From Nitrospira japonica (GTDB taxonomy: Bacteria; Nitrospirota; Nitrospiria; Nitrospirales; Nitrospiraceae): a DNA stretch of 64,000 nt. The stretch's first letter is position 1, and each line of letters opens with the position of its first letter. The position numbers were made by a program, and so were the translations under genes. The stretch lies in contig NZ_LT828648.1 of NCBI RefSeq assembly GCF_900169565.1, positions 870,876 through 934,875 of the forward strand, read 5' to 3'. The notes under the pieces were generated by a model. That model ran no database searches and was not told the origin of the DNA. It worked only from the letters and a program-made list of their open reading frames with translations. Positions 7,858 to 15,417 of the stretch are shown here, in pieces.

Positions 7858-9279
7858 ATGAGCATCAAACCGGTGACCGACAAGATTTTCACCATCCTGC
7901 TGGTTGAGGACAACGGCGGAGACGTGGAAGTCTTTCTGCGCACTGTTGAGGCAGAGCTTCCCCGCGAAGCAGATGAACAGGTCGACTTGGTGATCGCCGC
8001 GCGCGCAGAAGGTGCGTTGAAGGTCCTTGAAGACAGGCGAATTGATCTGGTGATCACGGAGGTCCGGCTGCCGGGAATGAGCGGCATCGAGTTGCTGCAG
8101 CGGATCCAAGCGAGAGACCGTAGGATTCCAGTCATCGTGATCAGTCGAGTAGGAACTGTGGATACCGCCGTCGAAGCGATGCGCTGCGGAGCGTTTGACT
8201 ATGTCACCAAACCATTCGAAAGACTGGACTTGGCCGCCAGGATTCACCGAGCGATGCGAATTTCTGAAATCTTATTCCGGTACGAGCCTCCCCAGAAGGG
8301 AGAGCCGCAGACATTCAAGGAATTGATTGGTGTAAGCCCCGCCATCCGCAATGTGACGGCCTTGATCGAAGCCGCCGCGCGGGTGCAGTCCACCACGTTG
8401 ATCATTGGAGAAACGGGAACCGGAAAGGAGCTGATTGCCAGGGCCATCCACGAACGGAGCGCCGAACGTGACGGCCCCTTTCAGGTCGTCGACTGCACGA
8501 CCTTCTCGGAAGGAACGGTCGAGAGCGAACTCTTCGGCCACGTGCGCGGCGCCTTTACGGGGGCCGTTGGAGATAAGCTCGGATTGATCGAACGGGGAAT
8601 TGGTGGCACGCTGTTTCTTGACGAGATCGGCGACCTGCCTCTTCCATTACAGGCAAAGCTGCTCCGGGTTCTGGAAGAGGGAGAAATGCGGGCCGTGGGA
8701 AGCGTGCAGATGAAAAAAGTCAGCGCGCGCTTCATCGCAGCGACCAATCAGGAGCTTACCGAGAAGGTAAAACGGAATGAATTCCGCAAAGATCTGTTTT
8801 TCCGACTCAATGTCATGGCCATCAGAGTGCCGCCCCTACGCGAGCGATCACAGGATATTCCTCTGCTTGCCCGCCATTTCATGTCCCGATATACGAAGGA
8901 ATTCGGTAAATATGTAAATGAATTGCATCCTTCTGCTGTCACGGAACTCGTGGCCTATCCCTGGCCTGGGAACGTTCGGGAACTTCGCAACGTCATGGAG
9001 CGGGCGGTCATGCTGGCTAACGGGGATCGCATCAGCCAAGAGGATGTTATCGGCCTGCTGCAGTTTACCGATCAAGCAAAAAGAGCCCAAGGAGATGATT
9101 ACCTCTCTCTTCCCTATGCGAAAGCGAAGGAAAAGGTATTGGAGGACTTCAGTCGCCGCTACATCAAGTCCAAACTGGACCACCATCAGGGCAACGTCAC
9201 ACATGCGGCTCAAGAGGCAGGATTACCTCGCTCCTACTTCCACGAAATTATGCGGCGATATTTGAGAGACGAGAAGTAG
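7858..9279 (+). CDS. Sigma-54-dependent response-regulator-type activator, probable nxr regulator
   Basis: 473 aa, NtrC-like architecture. A receiver-like domain (about 10-130) has the acidic pair E17/D18 and a conserved Lys in YVTKPF. The phosphoacceptor position, in LVITEVRLPG, is Glu68 instead of Asp. The AAA+ domain has Walker A (GETGTGKE), the GAFTGA loop that contacts sigma-54, and Walker B (LFLDEIGD). The C-terminal Fis-type HTH includes GNVTHAAQEAGLPRSYF. It should open sigma-54 promoters by ATP hydrolysis from upstream enhancers. The next gene downstream on the same strand, after a 465-bp spacer, is nxrA, where paired dyads and a sigma-54-like promoter occur. Control of nxrAB is therefore a reasonable inference. 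No histidine kinase lies beside it. Confidence 0.92.
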   Translation: MSIKPVTDKIFTILLVEDNGGDVEVFLRTVEAELPREADEQVDLVIAARAEGALKVLEDRRIDLVITEVRLPGMSGIELLQRIQARDRRIPVIVISRVGTVDTAVEAMRCGAFDYVTKPFERLDLAARIHRAMRISEILFRYEPPQKGEPQTFKELIGVSPAIRNVTALIEAAARVQSTTLIIGETGTGKELIARAIHERSAERDGPFQVVDCTTFSEGTVESELFGHVRGAFTGAVGDKLGLIERGIGGTLFLDEIGDLPLPLQAKLLRVLEEGEMRAVGSVQMKKVSARFIAATNQELTEKVKRNEFRKDLFFRLNVMAIRVPPLRERSQDIPLLARHFMSRYTKEFGKYVNELHPSAVTELVAYPWPGNVRELRNVMERAVMLANGDRISQEDVIGLLQFTDQAKRAQGDDYLSLPYAKAKEKVLEDFSRRYIKSKLDHHQGNVTHAAQEAGLPRSYFHEIMRRYLRDEK

Positions 9280-9367
9280 TCCCGCTGTCATTCTTTCCTT
9301 ACACTTCACCCCGTCTTTCCTTGTATCGTATTGATTTTTAATTGATTTAGTCATTATCAACTTCACT

Positions 9368-9383
9368 GTCAGCATTCACTGAC
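9368..9383. promoter_or_regulatory. Enhancer-like dyad 1 (GTCAG-N6-CTGAC)
   Basis: GTCAG and CTGAC flank the 6-base spacer CATTCA. The arms extend by one more pair (T...A). The centre is about 212 bp upstream of the -12 element of the putative sigma-54 promoter, the usual distance range for enhancer-binding activators. It is matched by a second copy downstream. Confidence 0.55.
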
Positions 9384-9433
9384 ACACAAATCATATATAA
9401 ATCATAGGCTTACGATAGTCGCCCCATTTCTTC

Positions 9434-9449
9434 GTCAGGCGCTGCTGAC
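9434..9449. promoter_or_regulatory. Enhancer-like dyad 2 (GTCAG-N6-CTGAC)
   Basis: The same arms and the same 6-base gap (GCGCTG) as dyad 1. The centres are exactly 66 bp apart, close to six helical turns, so both could lie on the same DNA face. The spacer bases differ while the arms are identical, which argues for selection on the arms rather than a simple recent duplication. Confidence 0.55.
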
Positions 9450-9574
9450 AGGCCCTGTTTTCTGCTGGATCCTGCTCGAGAACTCCTTTCAGTCAAAAAA
9501 CCATAACATGCTGATTTACAAATTGAATATCGGCATTGCGTCGCCGACATTTCCCTAGCATTTAGCCATGCTAC

Positions 9575-9590
9575 CGGCATGGTGCTTGTA
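9575..9590 (+). promoter_or_regulatory. Candidate sigma-54 promoter of nxrA
   Basis: CGGCATGGTGCTTGTA resembles the -24/-12 consensus TGGCACG-N4-TTGCA. GG lies at -24 and TTG at -12 with the correct spacing. There are mismatches at the first T, the C of CAC and the final C (GT instead of GC). Transcription would start near 9601, giving a leader of about 145 nt before nxrA. Confidence 0.4.
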
Positions 9591-9628
9591 AAGATGTTCC
9601 GTCCATGAGCGACGAGGGAGGTATGTTC

Positions 9629-9727
9629 GTGCGACTCGATTCTAGTCGAAAGGGGGTGAGAGGGAAGGTCGGTGGGCCTTTCAGAGTTGACAGAGGTAAC
9701 GGCAACGTTACGCAAGATTGTCTTTGA
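9629..9727 (+). CDS. Possible 32-aa leader peptide upstream of nxrA
   Basis: A GTG at 9629 is preceded by GGGAGG at good spacing and opens a 33-codon frame ending in TGA at 9725-9727, four bases before the nxrA ribosome-binding site. The encoded peptide is basic (RLDSSRKGVRGKVGG...) with no recognisable domain. It could be a chance frame in the leader. The well-placed ribosome-binding site and the closeness of its stop to nxrA are the only evidence. Confidence 0.25.
   Translation: MRLDSSRKGVRGKVGGPFRVDRGNGNVTQDCL
9696..9711 (+). other. Small hairpin with GCAA tetraloop before the nxrA ribosome-binding site
   Basis: GTAACG (9696-9701) pairs with CGTTAC (9706-9711) around a GCAA loop, a GNRA-type tetraloop. 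It ends 20 bases before the AGGAGG site. A second hairpin, CGACT/AGTCG with a 7-base loop, lies at 9632-9648. Both could shape translation or decay of nxrA mRNA. Confidence 0.35.
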
Positions 9728-9744
9728 AGTAGGAGGTGTTCGCA

Positions 9745-12700
9745 ATGCAGCAATCATTAGTCTCACGTCGGCAGTTCCTAAAAATTACAGCTGGAACGGT
9801 CGCGGCTGTCGCAGTGGCGGACAAGGTCTTGGCCTTGACGGCGCTGCAGCCGGTCATCGAAGTGGGTAACCCACTGGGTGACTATCCGGATCGGTCCTGG
9901 GAGCGGGTCTACCACGACCAGTATCGTTACGATTCTTCTTTTACGTGGTGTTGTTCCCCGAACGACACTCACGGATGCCGCGTTCGCGCCTTTGTTCGCA
10001 ACGGCGTGGTCATGCGGGTCGAACAGAACTATGACCATCAAACCTACGAAGATCTCTACGGCAACCGCGGGACATTCGCACATAATCCCCGGATGTGCCT
10101 AAAAGGATTCACCTTCCACCGCCGCGTATACGGCCCGTATCGCTTGAAGGGACCGTTGATGCGGAAGGGTTGGAAAGAGTGGATGGATGCCGGCTCCCCG
10201 GAGTTAACTCCGGACGTGAAGCGGAAATATAAATTTGACGCCCGTTTTCTGGACGACATGATGCGGGTGTCCTGGGATACCGCGGCGACCTATGCGGCCA
10301 AGGGCTGCATCCTCATCGCGACCCGGTACAGCGGCGAAGCGGGCGCTCGGCGCCTGCGCGAACAGGGCTATGCACCGGAGATGATCGAGATGATGAAGGG
10401 CGCCGGAGTTCGGTGCTTTAAGCATCGGGCCGGTATGCCCGTGCTCGGCATCATCGGGAAGATGATGAACACCCGCTTCAACGGCGGTGTGTTGCCGCTT
10501 CTGGATTCCTGGATCCGCAAAGTGGACGCGGACAGGGCCCAAGGCGGAAAGTACTATTCGAACTACACCTGGCACGGCGACCAAGACCCCTCCCATCCAT
10601 GGTGGAACGGCACGCAGAACTGCGACATTGACCTCTCCGACATGCGGTTCAGCAAGCTGAACACCAGCTGGGGCAAGAACTTCGTCGAGAACAAGATGCC
10701 GGAAGCTCACTGGAAGCTCGAGTGCATCGAGCGCGGTGGCCGCGTCGTGGTGATCACGCCGGAGTACAATCCGACGGCCTATCGGGCCGACTACTGGATT
10801 CCGGTGCGCCCGGAGACGGACGGCGCCTTGTTCCTGGGTGGTTCCAAAATCATCCTCGACGAGAACCTGCAGGACATCGACTATATCAAGCAGTTCACCG
10901 ATCTTCCGATCCTGGTCAGGACGGACACGCTCCAGTATCTGGATCCGCGTGACGTCGTCCCTGATTTCAAGTTCCCGGATCACTCCAAGAGTTATTCGGG
11001 GCGGATTCAGGCCCTCAAGCCCGAACAGATCGAGCGCTTGGGCGGGTTTATGATGTACGACCTGGCGAAAAAGCAGCCGGTCTATGTCAACCGGGAACAG
11101 GTCGGTTTCCATTTCGTGCAGACCGGAATCGATCCAGCGTTGACCGGAACCTTCCGCGTCAAACTGCTGAACGGTCGCGAAGTGGACGTATCGCCGATCT
11201 ACCAGATGTACCTGGTCCACCTCCAGGACTACGATCTGGATACGGTGAATCAGATCACCCGGTCGCCCAAGGACTTGATCGTCCGCTGGGGTCGGGATTC
11301 AGGCACCGTGAAGCCGGCGGCCATGCACAACGGCGAAGGTGTCTGTCACTACTTCCATATGACGGAAATGGGTCGGGCAGCGGCATTCGTCCTGACCTTG
11401 ACCGGCAATATCGGAAAGTTCGGCACGGGATGTCATACCTGGTCCGGCAACTACAAAGCCGGTATCTGGAACGCCACCCCCTGGTCGGGCGCCGGCCTGG
11501 CGGTGCATACGGGCGAGGATCCGTTCAATCAGACCCTCGATCCTAATGCGCACGGGAAGGAAATCAAGACGAAGTCCTACTACTACGGCGAGGAGGTCGG
11601 CTACTGGAACCACGGCGACACCGCCCTGATCGTCAATACGCCGAAGTACGGACGCAAGGTGTTCACGGGTAAGACGCACATGCCGAGCCCGAGCAAGGTG
11701 CGGTGGGTAACCAACGTGAACATTCTGAACAACGCCAAGCACCACTATGACATGGTGCGCAACGTGGATCCGAACATCGAGATGATCGTCACGCAAGACA
11801 TCGAGATGACCTCGGACGTCAACCACGCCGACATCGCGTTTGCCTGCAACTCCTGGATGGAATTCACCTATCCGGAGATGACGGCGACGGTGTCGAATCC
11901 CTGGGTGCAAATCTGGAAGGGCGGCATCCGGCCGCTGTACGACACCCGCAACGATGCCGATACCTTTGCGGCCGTGGCGGCCAGACTGACGGAAATGACG
12001 GGCGATGTCCGTATCCGTCAGGTGTTCCACTTCGTGTATCAGAACCGCGTGGACGTGTACGTCCAACGCGCGCTCGACGCCAGCGCGACCTGCTACGGGT
12101 ACAACGCTGACGTGATGCTGAAGTCGGAAAAGGGCTGGATGGTCATGGGACGAACCTATCCCCGCCATCCGCTCTGGGAAGAAACGAACGAATCGAAACC
12201 GCAGTGGACGCGATGCGGCCGTATTGAAACCTACCGCATCGAGCCCGAGGCGATCGAGTACGGGGAAAACTTCATCGTTCACCGGGAAGGCCCGGAGGCG
12301 ACCCCGTATCTGCCGAACGCCATCTTCACGACCAACCCGTACGTCCGACCGGACGACTACGGCATTCCGATCACGGCGCAGCACCATGACGACAAGACGG
12401 TGCGCAACATCAAGCTGCCGTGGGCGGAAATCAAGCGGCACGCCAACCCGTTGTGGGAGAAGGGCTACCAGTTCTACTGCGTGACGCCCAAGACCCGGCA
12501 CCGGGTGCACAGCCAGTGGTCGGTGAACGACTGGGTGCAGATTTACGAGTCGAACTTCGGCGATCCGTACCGCATGGACAAACGGACGCCGGGCGTCGGC
12601 GAGCACCAGTTGCACATCAACCCGCAGGCGGCCAAAGACCGCGGCATCAACGACGGCGACTACGTCTATGTGGACGGCAACCCGGTGGACCGGCCCTATC

Positions 12701-13191
12701 GTGGCTGGAAGCCCTCGGATCCGTTCTACAAGGTGGCCCGTCTGATGATCCGGGCGAAGTACAACCCCGCCTATCCGTACCACGTGACGATGGCGAAGCA
12801 CGCCCCGTACGTGTCGACGGCGAAGTCGGTGAAGGGCCACGAGACCCGGCCGGACGGCCGAGCCATCGCGGTGGACACCGGCTATCAGTCCAACTTCCGG
12901 TACGGGGCCCAACAGTCCTTTACCCGGTCGTGGCTGATGCCGATGCACCAGACCGACTCGCTCCCGGGCAAACACGCCAACGGGTTGAAATGGAAGTGGG
13001 GGTTCGAAATCGACCACCACGCGGTCAACACGGTGCCGAAGGAATGCTTGATCCGCATCACCAAGGCGGAAGACGGCGGCATCGGAGCGCGCGGCCCGTG
13101 GGAACCGGTGCGCACCGGCTTTACCCCGGGACAGGAGAACGAGTTCATGATCAAGTGGCTCAAAGGTGAGCACATCAAGATCAAGGTGTAG
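9745..13191 (+). CDS. nxrA: Nitrite oxidoreductase alpha (molybdopterin) subunit
   Basis: 1148 aa, a type II DMSO-reductase-family catalytic subunit oxidising nitrite to nitrate in the periplasm. The N-terminus MQQSLVSRRQFLKI is a twin-arginine signal followed by an Ala/Val-rich segment, so export through Tat is expected. The N-terminal cluster ligands appear as C70-x3-D74-x3-C78 and C118, with Asp in the second position. The body has the NxrA features of Nitrospira-type enzymes, and the length is typical. The ATG at 9745 has AGGAGG eight bases upstream; an in-frame GTG three codons earlier overlaps that site and is rejected. nxrB follows after 143 bp. Upstream enhancer-like dyads suggest sigma-54 control. 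It provides electrons from nitrite to the respiratory chain via NxrB and, usually, a haem-containing gamma subunit that is not in this window. Confidence 0.96.
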   Translation: MQQSLVSRRQFLKITAGTVAAVAVADKVLALTALQPVIEVGNPLGDYPDRSWERVYHDQYRYDSSFTWCCSPNDTHGCRVRAFVRNGVVMRVEQNYDHQTYEDLYGNRGTFAHNPRMCLKGFTFHRRVYGPYRLKGPLMRKGWKEWMDAGSPELTPDVKRKYKFDARFLDDMMRVSWDTAATYAAKGCILIATRYSGEAGARRLREQGYAPEMIEMMKGAGVRCFKHRAGMPVLGIIGKMMNTRFNGGVLPLLDSWIRKVDADRAQGGKYYSNYTWHGDQDPSHPWWNGTQNCDIDLSDMRFSKLNTSWGKNFVENKMPEAHWKLECIERGGRVVVITPEYNPTAYRADYWIPVRPETDGALFLGGSKIILDENLQDIDYIKQFTDLPILVRTDTLQYLDPRDVVPDFKFPDHSKSYSGRIQALKPEQIERLGGFMMYDLAKKQPVYVNREQVGFHFVQTGIDPALTGTFRVKLLNGREVDVSPIYQMYLVHLQDYDLDTVNQITRSPKDLIVRWGRDSGTVKPAAMHNGEGVCHYFHMTEMGRAAAFVLTLTGNIGKFGTGCHTWSGNYKAGIWNATPWSGAGLAVHTGEDPFNQTLDPNAHGKEIKTKSYYYGEEVGYWNHGDTALIVNTPKYGRKVFTGKTHMPSPSKVRWVTNVNILNNAKHHYDMVRNVDPNIEMIVTQDIEMTSDVNHADIAFACNSWMEFTYPEMTATVSNPWVQIWKGGIRPLYDTRNDADTFAAVAARLTEMTGDVRIRQVFHFVYQNRVDVYVQRALDASATCYGYNADVMLKSEKGWMVMGRTYPRHPLWEETNESKPQWTRCGRIETYRIEPEAIEYGENFIVHREGPEATPYLPNAIFTTNPYVRPDDYGIPITAQHHDDKTVRNIKLPWAEIKRHANPLWEKGYQFYCVTPKTRHRVHSQWSVNDWVQIYESNFGDPYRMDKRTPGVGEHQLHINPQAAKDRGINDGDYVYVDGNPVDRPYRGWKPSDPFYKVARLMIRAKYNPAYPYHVTMAKHAPYVSTAKSVKGHETRPDGRAIAVDTGYQSNFRYGAQQSFTRSWLMPMHQTDSLPGKHANGLKWKWGFEIDHHAVNTVPKECLIRITKAEDGGIGARGPWEPVRTGFTPGQENEFMIKWLKGEHIKIKV

Positions 13192-13334: not shown

Positions 13335-14624
13335 ATGCCAGAAGTCTATAACTGGCAACTGGGACGGAAGATGCTGTATCCGTATGAGGAGCGGCATCCG
13401 AAGTGGCAGTTTGCCTTTGTGTTCAATATCAACCGGTGTTTGGCGTGTCAGACGTGTTCGATGGCGGACAAGTCGACCTGGCTGTTTTCGAAGGGCCAGG
13501 AATACATGTGGTGGAACAACGTGGAGACGAAGCCGTACGGCGGGTATCCCCAGTTCTACGACGTGAAGATCACGCAGTTGATCGAGCAAGTGAACCCGGG
13601 GGGGCAGGTGTGGAACGTGCGGGTGGGCCGCAAGCACCATGCGCCCTACGGGGTGTTCGAAGGGATGACCATTTTCGACGCGGGGGCCAAGGTGGGCCAG
13701 GCGGCGATCGGGTACATTCCGACGGACCAGGAATGGCGCTTCGTGAACATCTACGAGGACACGGCCACGTCGATGCGCTCCTTGGTGGAGGGGATCGATC
13801 GGTCGGGGTTCTCGCGCGATGAACCGTGGCGGCTGTCCGGCAGCTCGCTGCCGGAGCATGAGACGTTCTTCTTCTACCTGCAACGGATCTGCAACCACTG
13901 CACGTATCCGGGCTGTTTGGCCGCCTGCCCGCGCAAGGCGATCTATAAACGGCCGGAAGACGGCATTGTGTTGATCGACCAGAACCGCTGCCGCGGGTAC
14001 AAGAAGTGCGTGGAGCAGTGCCCGTTCAAGAAGCCGATGTACCGGGGGACGACCCGGGTGTCGGAGAAGTGCATTGCGTGCTATCCGCGGATCGAGGGGA
14101 AGGATCCGCTGACGGGCGGCGAGCCGATGGAAACGCGCTGTATGGCGGCGTGCGTGGGGAAGATCCGCATGCAGAGCCTGGTGCGCATCGGCGAGGACGG
14201 CCTGTGGGCGGAGGACCGGTGGCACCCCCTGTACTACACCATTCGGGTGGAGCAGGTGGCGTTGCCTCTGTATCCGCAGTGGGGCACGGAGCCCAATGGC
14301 TATTACATTCCGCCGCGGCACAGCCCGCGGGGCTATGCCCGGCAGATGTTCGGTCCGGGCGTGGACAATGCCATTGAGAAGTATCTGGTGCCGAGCCGGG
14401 AGTTGTTGGCGGTGCTGCAGCTGTGGCGCGCCAGTCAGCAGATCGTCTTCCGGTATGACGTCATTCCGGGCCCGAAGGTGTTTGAGACCCAGATTCACGG
14501 GAAGCGGTTCGAGATGTACAACGATACCGTGCTGGGCTTCAACAAGTCGGGGAAGGAAGTGGCGCGCATTCAGGTCGAAGAGCCGATCTACATCAGACCC
14601 GCGGAACGGGTGAACTGGCTGTAG
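13335..14624 (+). CDS. nxrB: Nitrite oxidoreductase beta (iron-sulfur) subunit
   Basis: 429 aa, the length of Nitrospira NxrB. Four cysteine blocks bind the Fe-S relay: C35-x2-C38-x2-C41 (the position where a fourth Cys is usual is Asp45), CNHCTYPGCLAACP, CRGYKKCVEQCP (Tyr where many homologues have Trp or Cys, typical of a [3Fe-4S] site) and CIACYP...CMAACVGK. It accepts electrons from NxrA and passes them to the membrane-associated subunit. There is no signal peptide; co-export with NxrA by the Tat hitchhiker route is the accepted idea for the family. A strong ribosome-binding site (AAGGAGG) precedes the ATG. Two strong hairpins follow the stop. Confidence 0.97.
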   Translation: MPEVYNWQLGRKMLYPYEERHPKWQFAFVFNINRCLACQTCSMADKSTWLFSKGQEYMWWNNVETKPYGGYPQFYDVKITQLIEQVNPGGQVWNVRVGRKHHAPYGVFEGMTIFDAGAKVGQAAIGYIPTDQEWRFVNIYEDTATSMRSLVEGIDRSGFSRDEPWRLSGSSLPEHETFFFYLQRICNHCTYPGCLAACPRKAIYKRPEDGIVLIDQNRCRGYKKCVEQCPFKKPMYRGTTRVSEKCIACYPRIEGKDPLTGGEPMETRCMAACVGKIRMQSLVRIGEDGLWAEDRWHPLYYTIRVEQVALPLYPQWGTEPNGYYIPPRHSPRGYARQMFGPGVDNAIEKYLVPSRELLAVLQLWRASQQIVFRYDVIPGPKVFETQIHGKRFEMYNDTVLGFNKSGKEVARIQVEEPIYIRPAERVNWL

Positions 14625-14672: not shown

Positions 14673-14707
14673 GAAGGGCAGAGTATTGATTCAATACTCT
14701 GCCCTTC
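14673..14707 (+). terminator. 17-bp perfect inverted repeat after nxrB
   Basis: GAAGGGCAGAGTATTGA and its exact complement are separated by a single T, so the RNA would form a long stem with a tight tip. Together with the preceding GC hairpin this is the likely 3' end structure of the nxr mRNA, although there is no poly-U tail. A TTG inside it is in frame with the downstream CHASE3 gene but is unlikely to be its start. Confidence 0.55.
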
Positions 14708-14772
14708 GTGTATCTGCTGATCGTCAAAAAGAGCCGGAACACCGGCTCAGCGTACCAACGCTAAAAGGACTC

Positions 14773-15417
14773 GTGGCACGACGATCAAAACTGTGGGCTT
14801 ACCTCGGGGCGGGAATCGTCCTGATCGTGATCTTTTCCATCGAGCAGATGATGCTCCTCCGGCAGTGGCAGGACAACATCGTCTCGCAGCAACAGCGCAG
14901 CGCGATCCGCGAAGAAGTGCTCATCTTGCGCCGCTGGACTTCGGATATCGATAATGGGTTTCGTGGGTACGTCCTCGTGCGGCAACCCTACTTCCTGGCT
15001 CCCATGGTCATGGCCGAAGAAGAAATCCCGATGGCGCTTGAGCGTTTGACACGGCTGACCGGCTCGACCCCAGCACTTCAGGGAAGCGTCCAGGTGCTCA
15101 AGCGACGGCTTGACGAATTGATCACGACCAAGCGGAAGCTTGCCACCAAGATTGCCAACGGGGAATCGGAAGAAGTTTTGGCCTATGTACGGGCCGGTGA
15201 AGGATTGGCGCTGGCGAAAACCATCTCGGCAGTCTTCGACGACTTCGAAACCAAAATCGCCAGGCAATTTCCGGAAGCGGACCTGACCCCGCTCGAGCGA
15301 CAGAAAAAAACGCTCTGGCAGCTGGTGGCCGCCCAAGCCGGCGCCGTGTTCGTCGGAGTGCTGGTGATGGAGTTACTGCTTGCCGCTTTTGCCGCGCCTC
15401 AGCGGTCGGAAACGTAA
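14773..15417 (+). CDS. Orphan CHASE3-type membrane sensor protein
   Basis: About 214 aa from the GTG at 14773, which has AAAGGA just upstream. An in-frame TTG at 14686 inside the preceding hairpin is an alternative. One hydrophobic helix lies near residues 9-27 and another near the C-terminus (GAVFVGVLVMELLLAAFA), enclosing a periplasmic domain. The domain carries the CHASE3 signature DNGFRGYVLVRQPYFLAP and a long helical part. CHASE3 domains normally sit in front of histidine kinases or cyclases, but no output domain is present here. Its place directly behind nxrB suggests it senses a periplasmic cue related to nitrite oxidation. That link is inference. Confidence 0.65.
   Translation: MARRSKLWAYLGAGIVLIVIFSIEQMMLLRQWQDNIVSQQQRSAIREEVLILRRWTSDIDNGFRGYVLVRQPYFLAPMVMAEEEIPMALERLTRLTGSTPALQGSVQVLKRRLDELITTKRKLATKIANGESEEVLAYVRAGEGLALAKTISAVFDDFETKIARQFPEADLTPLERQKKTLWQLVAAQAGAVFVGVLVMELLLAAFAAPQRSET

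Follow-up and report, generated by a model that had tools for sequence, protein, structure and literature searches.

The 465-bp non-coding gap that separates a sigma-54 activator gene from nxrA in Nitrospira japonica, positions 9280-9744 of the analysed window (a stretch of 64,000 nucleotides from a closed genome of 4,084,817 bp), has the sequence organisation of an enhancer-dependent sigma-54 control region and very probably serves this nxrAB copy as one. The original prediction, that nxrAB is an enhancer-activated sigma-54 target, is supported by comparison with related sequences—dyads and promoter are conserved in all 39 upstream regions that belong to the same clade of activators (clade 1), and the dyad set is missing from nxrA copies linked to a second clade (clade 2). 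Nitrite oxidoreductase makes most of the world's nitrate, and Nitrospira, which rank with the most widespread nitrite oxidisers, are difficult to manipulate genetically. The conserved sites described here, namely three dyads, two IHF-like sites and one promoter, are exact testable cis elements and can be studied either in vitro or after transfer to a heterologous host. If such control is order-wide, a core energy gene would stand under an activator-dependent sigma factor, which suggests that multiple nxr copies could answer different signals.

Organisation of the nxrAB locus

Three nxrA copies were found in the genome of the window, and three are reported for N. japonica NJ1 (PMC7522533). The window's nxrA shares 91% identity with an N. 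defluvii chromosomal copy and its nxrB 97% with both N. moscoviensis NxrB copies searched, nxrB presumably being carried on the same transcript as nxrA. The layout of the region includes two IHF-like sites that were missing from the original prediction.

7858-9279, + strand: NtrC-type sigma-54 activator (bEBP) gene, with receiver-like domain, AAA+ domain with GAFTGA loop, and Fis-type HTH (HTH at about 9139-9261)
9286-9303: dyad site 0, TGTCATTCTTTCCTTACA, in degenerate form here
9368-9383: dyad site 1, GTCAGCATTCACTGAC, read as GTCAG-CATTCA-CTGAC; 6-bp arms when the flanks (9367-9384) are included
9400-9412, + strand: IHF-like site 1, AATCATAGGCTTA, one mismatch to the consensus WATCAANNNNTTR; between dyad sites 1 and 2
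9434-9449: dyad site 2, GTCAGGCGCTGCTGAC, read as GTCAG-GCGCTG-CTGAC
9504-9516, - strand: IHF-like site 2, TAACATGCTGATT, one mismatch to the reverse consensus YAANNNNTTGATW; between enhancers and promoter
9575-9590, + strand: predicted -24/-12 sigma-54 promoter, CGGCATGGTGCTTGTA, read as CGGCAT-GGTGC-TTGTA; predicted start at about 9600
9600-9744, + strand: predicted nxrA 5' leader, of putative extent
9648-9658: extended Shine-Dalgarno-like element in the leader; normal Shine-Dalgarno sequence at 9731-9737
9745-13191, + strand: nxrA (nitrite oxidoreductase alpha), target gene, with Molybdopterin oxidoreductase domains and TAT signal
13335-14624, + strand: nxrB (nitrite oxidoreductase beta), target gene, with 4Fe-4S domains

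The dyads and their conservation

Two GTCAG-N6-CTGAC dyads had been described 66 bp apart, with centres about 212 and 147 bp from the -12 element, and these details are correct: both dyads are exact, and they are the sole exact matches in the 64-kb window, the whole genome (4.08 Mb) holding five, of which the other three are scattered and each lie inside an open reading frame. The description as a pair needs amending, as the ancestral sites number three and the third (9286-9303) is degenerate here. That such a pair is improbable by chance is likewise true in part. This exact dyad arose twice in none of 20,000 Markov shuffles of the 465-bp region, but any pair of the same arm and the same gap was present in 29 of 3000 (about 1%), so that in a single genome the pair is only suggestive. 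The modest significance in one genome lends some credit to the view that such short palindromes occur anyway and that their conservation reflects close kinship only, as does the genome-wide frequency of the 18-bp pattern, which at up to two mismatches is found 95 times against 100 in the reversed control and is thus not enriched. The same counts, together with the location of the three other exact dyads in open reading frames, led to the rejection of a broad regulon of the dyad. Comparison of the sequences confirms that the reality of the dyads is decided by conservation and not by the window alone.

A search for the activator in 175 genomes of the family gave 40 matches at 64-100% identity (clade 1) and 37 at 50-56% (clade 2), each clade grouping alone in a midpoint-rooted tree with support of 0.75 and 1.0, respectively. 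Wherever the contig was long enough and the alignment located nxrA, this gene lay directly 3' of the activator, and 39 clade-1 and 36 clade-2 upstream regions were scored. The inspection of orthologous nxrA upstream regions proposed with the original prediction bore it out, at least two dyads (up to two mismatches) in register and a -24/-12 element of the form GGCA-N6-TTG being present in 39/39 clade-1 regions. The upstream DNA of this clade aligns with three dyads whose arms are conserved and whose spacers are free. Site 0 is, in most orthologues, an intact TGTCA-N8-TGACA placed 2-14 bp past the activator stop codon; site 1 follows at 81 bp in 30/35 regions, and site 2 at a further 67 bp in 30/36 (66 in the window). 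Neither the 81-bp nor the 66-67-bp spacing corresponds to whole helical turns, and their sum of about 148 bp is near 14 turns.

Column identities across 25 non-redundant clade-1 sequences, with a background of 0.42, reach 0.84, 0.75 and 0.95 in the arms of sites 0, 1 and 2, and the internal N6 spacers stay at background level (0.43). Conserved arms around unconserved spacers are the signature of a dimeric protein that contacts two half-sites. The inner arm bases of site 1 often co-vary, GTCTG being paired with CAGAC and GTCCG with CGGAC, and 13 of 36 regions carry a perfect palindrome there. Kinship alone would hardly leave the arms 75-95% conserved and the N6 between them not, against a background identity of only 42%, and the attribution of the dyads to chance, already refuted by the dyad alignment and the column conservation, retains practically no probability.

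Promoter and IHF-like sites

The sigma-54-like promoter proposed at 9575-9590 has GG and TTG at the right spacing and is kept in every clade-1 copy (39/39). Its presence and conservation thus hold, although the -12 element of clade 1 reads TTGT and not TTGC: the base after GGCA-N6-TTG is T in 38 of the 39 copies and A in the remaining one, so that this element has GT (one GA) where the canonical -24/-12 promoter has GG and GC 10 bases apart. Clade-2 regions carry GGCA-N6-TTGY in 36/36, and each of the 35 that fit the stricter form has C. The TTGT variant might be taken to mean that the promoter-like element is unused, nxrA being transcribed from a nearby sigma-70 or ECF promoter and the dyads being relics or RNA hairpins at the end of the activator gene. 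This is very unlikely in view of the invariance of GGCA-N6-TTG in 39 copies, where the promoter columns, with 0.98 identity in the 25 non-redundant sequences, are better conserved than anything else upstream of nxrA. Neither a sigma-70-like promoter nor a terminator was found in 9200-9760, and both readings of the region were rejected for this reason; RNA hairpins, moreover, are not expected to show sequence-specific arms at fixed spacings over about 148 bp. The sigma factor expected for a functional -24/-12 promoter is encoded once in the genome, by a single RpoN match to PF04552 (1.7e-56) with the RpoN-box motif ARRTVAKYR.

Between site 2 and the -24 element there are 90 to 144 bp, depending on the copy, and fixed dyad spacing combined with a variable promoter distance is what would be expected of co-operating dyads that reach the promoter through a DNA loop. 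The two IHF-like sites, matched with at most one mismatch in 32/39 and 33/39 regions against 5.9 and 4.8 in shuffles, have core columns of 0.74 and 0.81 identity, and their positions are conserved in clade 1. They are probable DNA-bending sites for an IHF/HU-type protein; four HU/IHF-family genes are present in the genome.

The activator and its relation to the dyads

The gene directly upstream, at 7858-9279, had been called a sigma-54 activator and is one of NtrC type. The protein has the features of an NtrC-type bEBP, with Pfam matches to Response_reg, Sigma54_activat (6e-61) and HTH_8, and its PDB matches are NtrC-family activators. The receiver and AAA+ domains score far above the Pfam cut-off; the HTH_8 match is weak (21.9 bits, just under the cut-off of 22; E 1.4e-4). 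GAFTGA is invariant in 77 activator orthologues and paralogues. The NCBIfam models for NtrC, NtrX, AtoC and ZraR do not class the protein as an equivalog of any of these, the best scores being 376 bits for AtoC (cut-off 714) and 370 for NtrC (cut-off 558.6).

Residue 68 of the receiver is the phospho-acceptor Asp in 34/40 orthologues, Glu in the window (8059-8061) and four relatives, and Gly in one, the N. moscoviensis paralogue L140, in which other receiver residues are lost too. The window activator thus lacks the phospho-acceptor Asp of a response regulator, and the change at residue 68 possibly means a loss of control by phosphorylation. Replacing the Asp of NtrC with Glu confers partial constitutive activity, and by analogy the window's copy may be active without a kinase.

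The dyads follow the activator clade. At least two (up to two mismatches) are present in 39/39 clade-1 regions and in 0/36 clade-2 regions, and the eight genomes which contain both activator clades show the same division, every clade-1 region having 2-4 dyad matches and the clade-2 regions having none or, at two loci, one. The recognition helices of the two clades differ, and the clade-2 layout upstream of nxrA is composed of two GTTTC-N6-GTNAC-like dyads near the activator stop codon, two GMATA-N6-TATKC-like dyads, IHF-like sites and TGGCA-N6-TTGC. The two other dyad families at clade-2 loci (for example L169, L162 and L163) suggest two regulators there. When tandem dyads were searched for in the 175 genomes, 41 of the 53 matches listed proved by their coordinates to be clade-1 nxrA loci, the remainder being scattered, and together with the clade-specific distribution this makes the activator appear dedicated to its own nxrA locus. 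Autoregulation was rejected, no dyad with at most one mismatch being found within 400 bp upstream of clade-1 activator genes.

The putative link between the activator and the dyads is drawn from their co-occurrence. With activator-dyad binding at the stage of a prediction and the HTH_8 match falling just short of its cut-off (21.9 vs 22 bits), the dyads could be the sites of another factor acting on the same promoter, for instance a nitrogen-oxide sensor or a repressor, and the activator next to them could have its sites elsewhere or not bind DNA at all. The distribution of the sites makes this improbable: the dyad set follows the activator clade rather than the genome or the nxrA gene, the recognition helices differ between the two clades, and the dyads adjoin the activator stop codon and, over 175 genomes, hardly occur outside clade-1 nxrA loci, as expected for a dedicated local regulator. 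Binding by the neighbouring activator is the preferred reading.

Promoters of nxrA across the order

Sigma-54-type elements are also found outside the two activator clades. NifA-linked nxrA copies carry TGGCAY-N7-TGCA in 7/7, and among copies without such an activator directly upstream TGGY-N8-TGC is present within 400 bp in 42/58, against 1.8 in shuffles and a rate of 0.098 per 400 bp in native loci. These elements mostly lie 180-235 bp from the start codon, and several of the other regulator-less copies have looser GG-N10-GC forms in the same place. Since -24/-12 elements precede 42 of 58 copies with no adjoining activator, sigma-54 control of nxrA may be order-wide. An apparent contrast, by which nxrA without an activator would also be without a sigma-54 promoter (0/58 with GGCA-N6-TTGY), was wrong, that pattern being too strict. 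A score matrix built on the clade-2 promoters gave poor separation for clade 1 and for the NifA class, owing to their differing -12 elements, and was applied only to the regulator-less class. At four loci (L011, L012, L013 and L017) no convincing -24/-12 element was found in the 400 bp upstream of nxrA; these genes may have another promoter or a different start codon.

The three nxrA copies of the window's genome represent one promoter type each, with TTGT in the window, TTGC at L169, and TGGC-N8-TGC at -262 in the third. Where an activator is linked, three modules can be distinguished:

Module 1: clade-1 activator, GTCAG triple dyads, TTGT
Module 2: clade-2 activator, two other dyad families, TTGC
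Module 3: NifA-linked, TGGCAY-N7-TGCA

On the evidence of these sequences, nxrA of Nitrospirales is likely to be sigma-54 dependent in general, with at least three interchangeable enhancer/activator modules that would give separate control of the copies. A GCTACC-N4-TGGAAAC dyad is conserved upstream of nxrA in a marine-like group (L062-L081) with no adjoining activator gene, and resembles the reverse of the clade-2 GTTTC-N6-GTNAC site.

Expression in Nitrospira moscoviensis

When published expression data are re-read, the N. moscoviensis nxrA with the highest expression proves to have a clade-1 activator immediately upstream on its own strand. This nxrA, NITMOv2_4538 (nxrA_5, 13,027 RPKM), is among the most expressed genes of the organism (PMC6606698); identified by strand and coordinates, it lies 429 bp behind the activator and has all three dyads and TGGCAC-N5-TTGT. 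We infer that the activator in question is NITMOv2_4539, which is called downstream in PMC6606698. Transcription of the clade-1 regulator gene itself is weak (PMC6606698). The copy assigned to nxrA_2, also of clade 1 with one dyad lost and two kept, is weakly expressed (179 RPKM), so that this architecture is not by itself sufficient for high expression, and the copy assigned to nxrA_3 (clade 2) reaches 19 RPKM. The pattern is compatible with activation and is no proof of it.

Proposed mechanism

Dimers of the activator would bind the GTCAG half-sites of the three dyads, the rigid spacing of which could help the assembly of the AAA+ oligomer. Bending of the DNA in between by an IHF/HU-type protein would bring the GAFTGA loops to RpoN-polymerase, which would be waiting in a closed complex at 9575-9590. 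Hydrolysis of ATP would then open the promoter near 9600, and the resulting leader would be some 145 nt long. In general, nxrA is probably transcribed with RpoN, and enhancer module and activator would differ between copies.

Comparison with known systems

The nxrA region resembles classical NtrC/NifA-type sigma-54 promoters in its upstream dyads, the IHF-like site in between, the -24/-12 element with a 10-base gap from GG to GC/GT, and the adjoining AAA+ activator with GAFTGA. It differs from them in having three dyads at fixed 81 and 67 bp, two IHF-like sites and a nearly invariant TTGT -12 element, and in its target, the enzyme at the core of a nitrite oxidiser's energy metabolism. The architecture is of a textbook kind; what is new is where it occurs, that the site is triple and that the promoter is order-wide. 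The NifA upstream activator sequence, TGT-N10-ACA, is likewise a dyad that precedes a sigma-54 promoter, and IHF lies between the two. Site 1 of nxrA differs in reading TGT-N12-ACA, and the nxrA activator carries a receiver-like domain in place of a GAF domain. Among published sites, those of FlrA (GTCA-N6-TGGC) and DVU2894 (GTCA-N6-TGAC), ascribed to sigma-54 activators (PMC4641369), come nearest in type and share the outer half-site GTCA. The nxrA dyads have GTCAG arms set 2 bp further apart (GTCA-N8-TGAC) and so do not fit the FlrA-type GTCA-N6-TGRC.

Sigma-54-dependent regulators adjoining nxrAB have been reported in N. moscoviensis and Nitrospira sp. KM1 (PMC6606698, PMC7522533), both papers citing Lucker 2010 and Koch 2015. 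The regulator genes are the same as those considered here, and sigma-54 control of nxr had already been suggested from gene neighbourhood. The portions of PMC6606698 and PMC7522533 covered by the search describe no promoter, enhancer or IHF site. No description of cis sites of nxr was found in the literature searched, which did not extend to Lucker 2010 and Koch 2015, and priority is accordingly unproven. No regulator was reported near N. moscoviensis nxrAB_1 or N. inopinata nxrAB (PMC6606698); the present analysis adds a -24/-12 element upstream of the regulator-less N. moscoviensis nxrA (L016), one of the 42 copies counted above.

Minor observations

The extended Shine-Dalgarno-like sequence of the leader (GAAAGGAGGTG, up to two mismatches) is found in 77/125 nxrA leaders against 1-3% in shuffles, at about 80-115 nt 5' of the nxrA start codon and in addition to the normal Shine-Dalgarno sequence; the leaders concerned are that of the window (9648-9658) and those in the ranges L087-L174 and L006-L083. 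STAB-SD elements of Bacillus stabilise transcripts or load ribosomes, and by analogy the sequence might do either in nxrA. Directly 3' of nxrB, a protein of 243 aa with a CHASE3 sensory domain only is encoded at 14686-15417 and is a possible signal-input partner.
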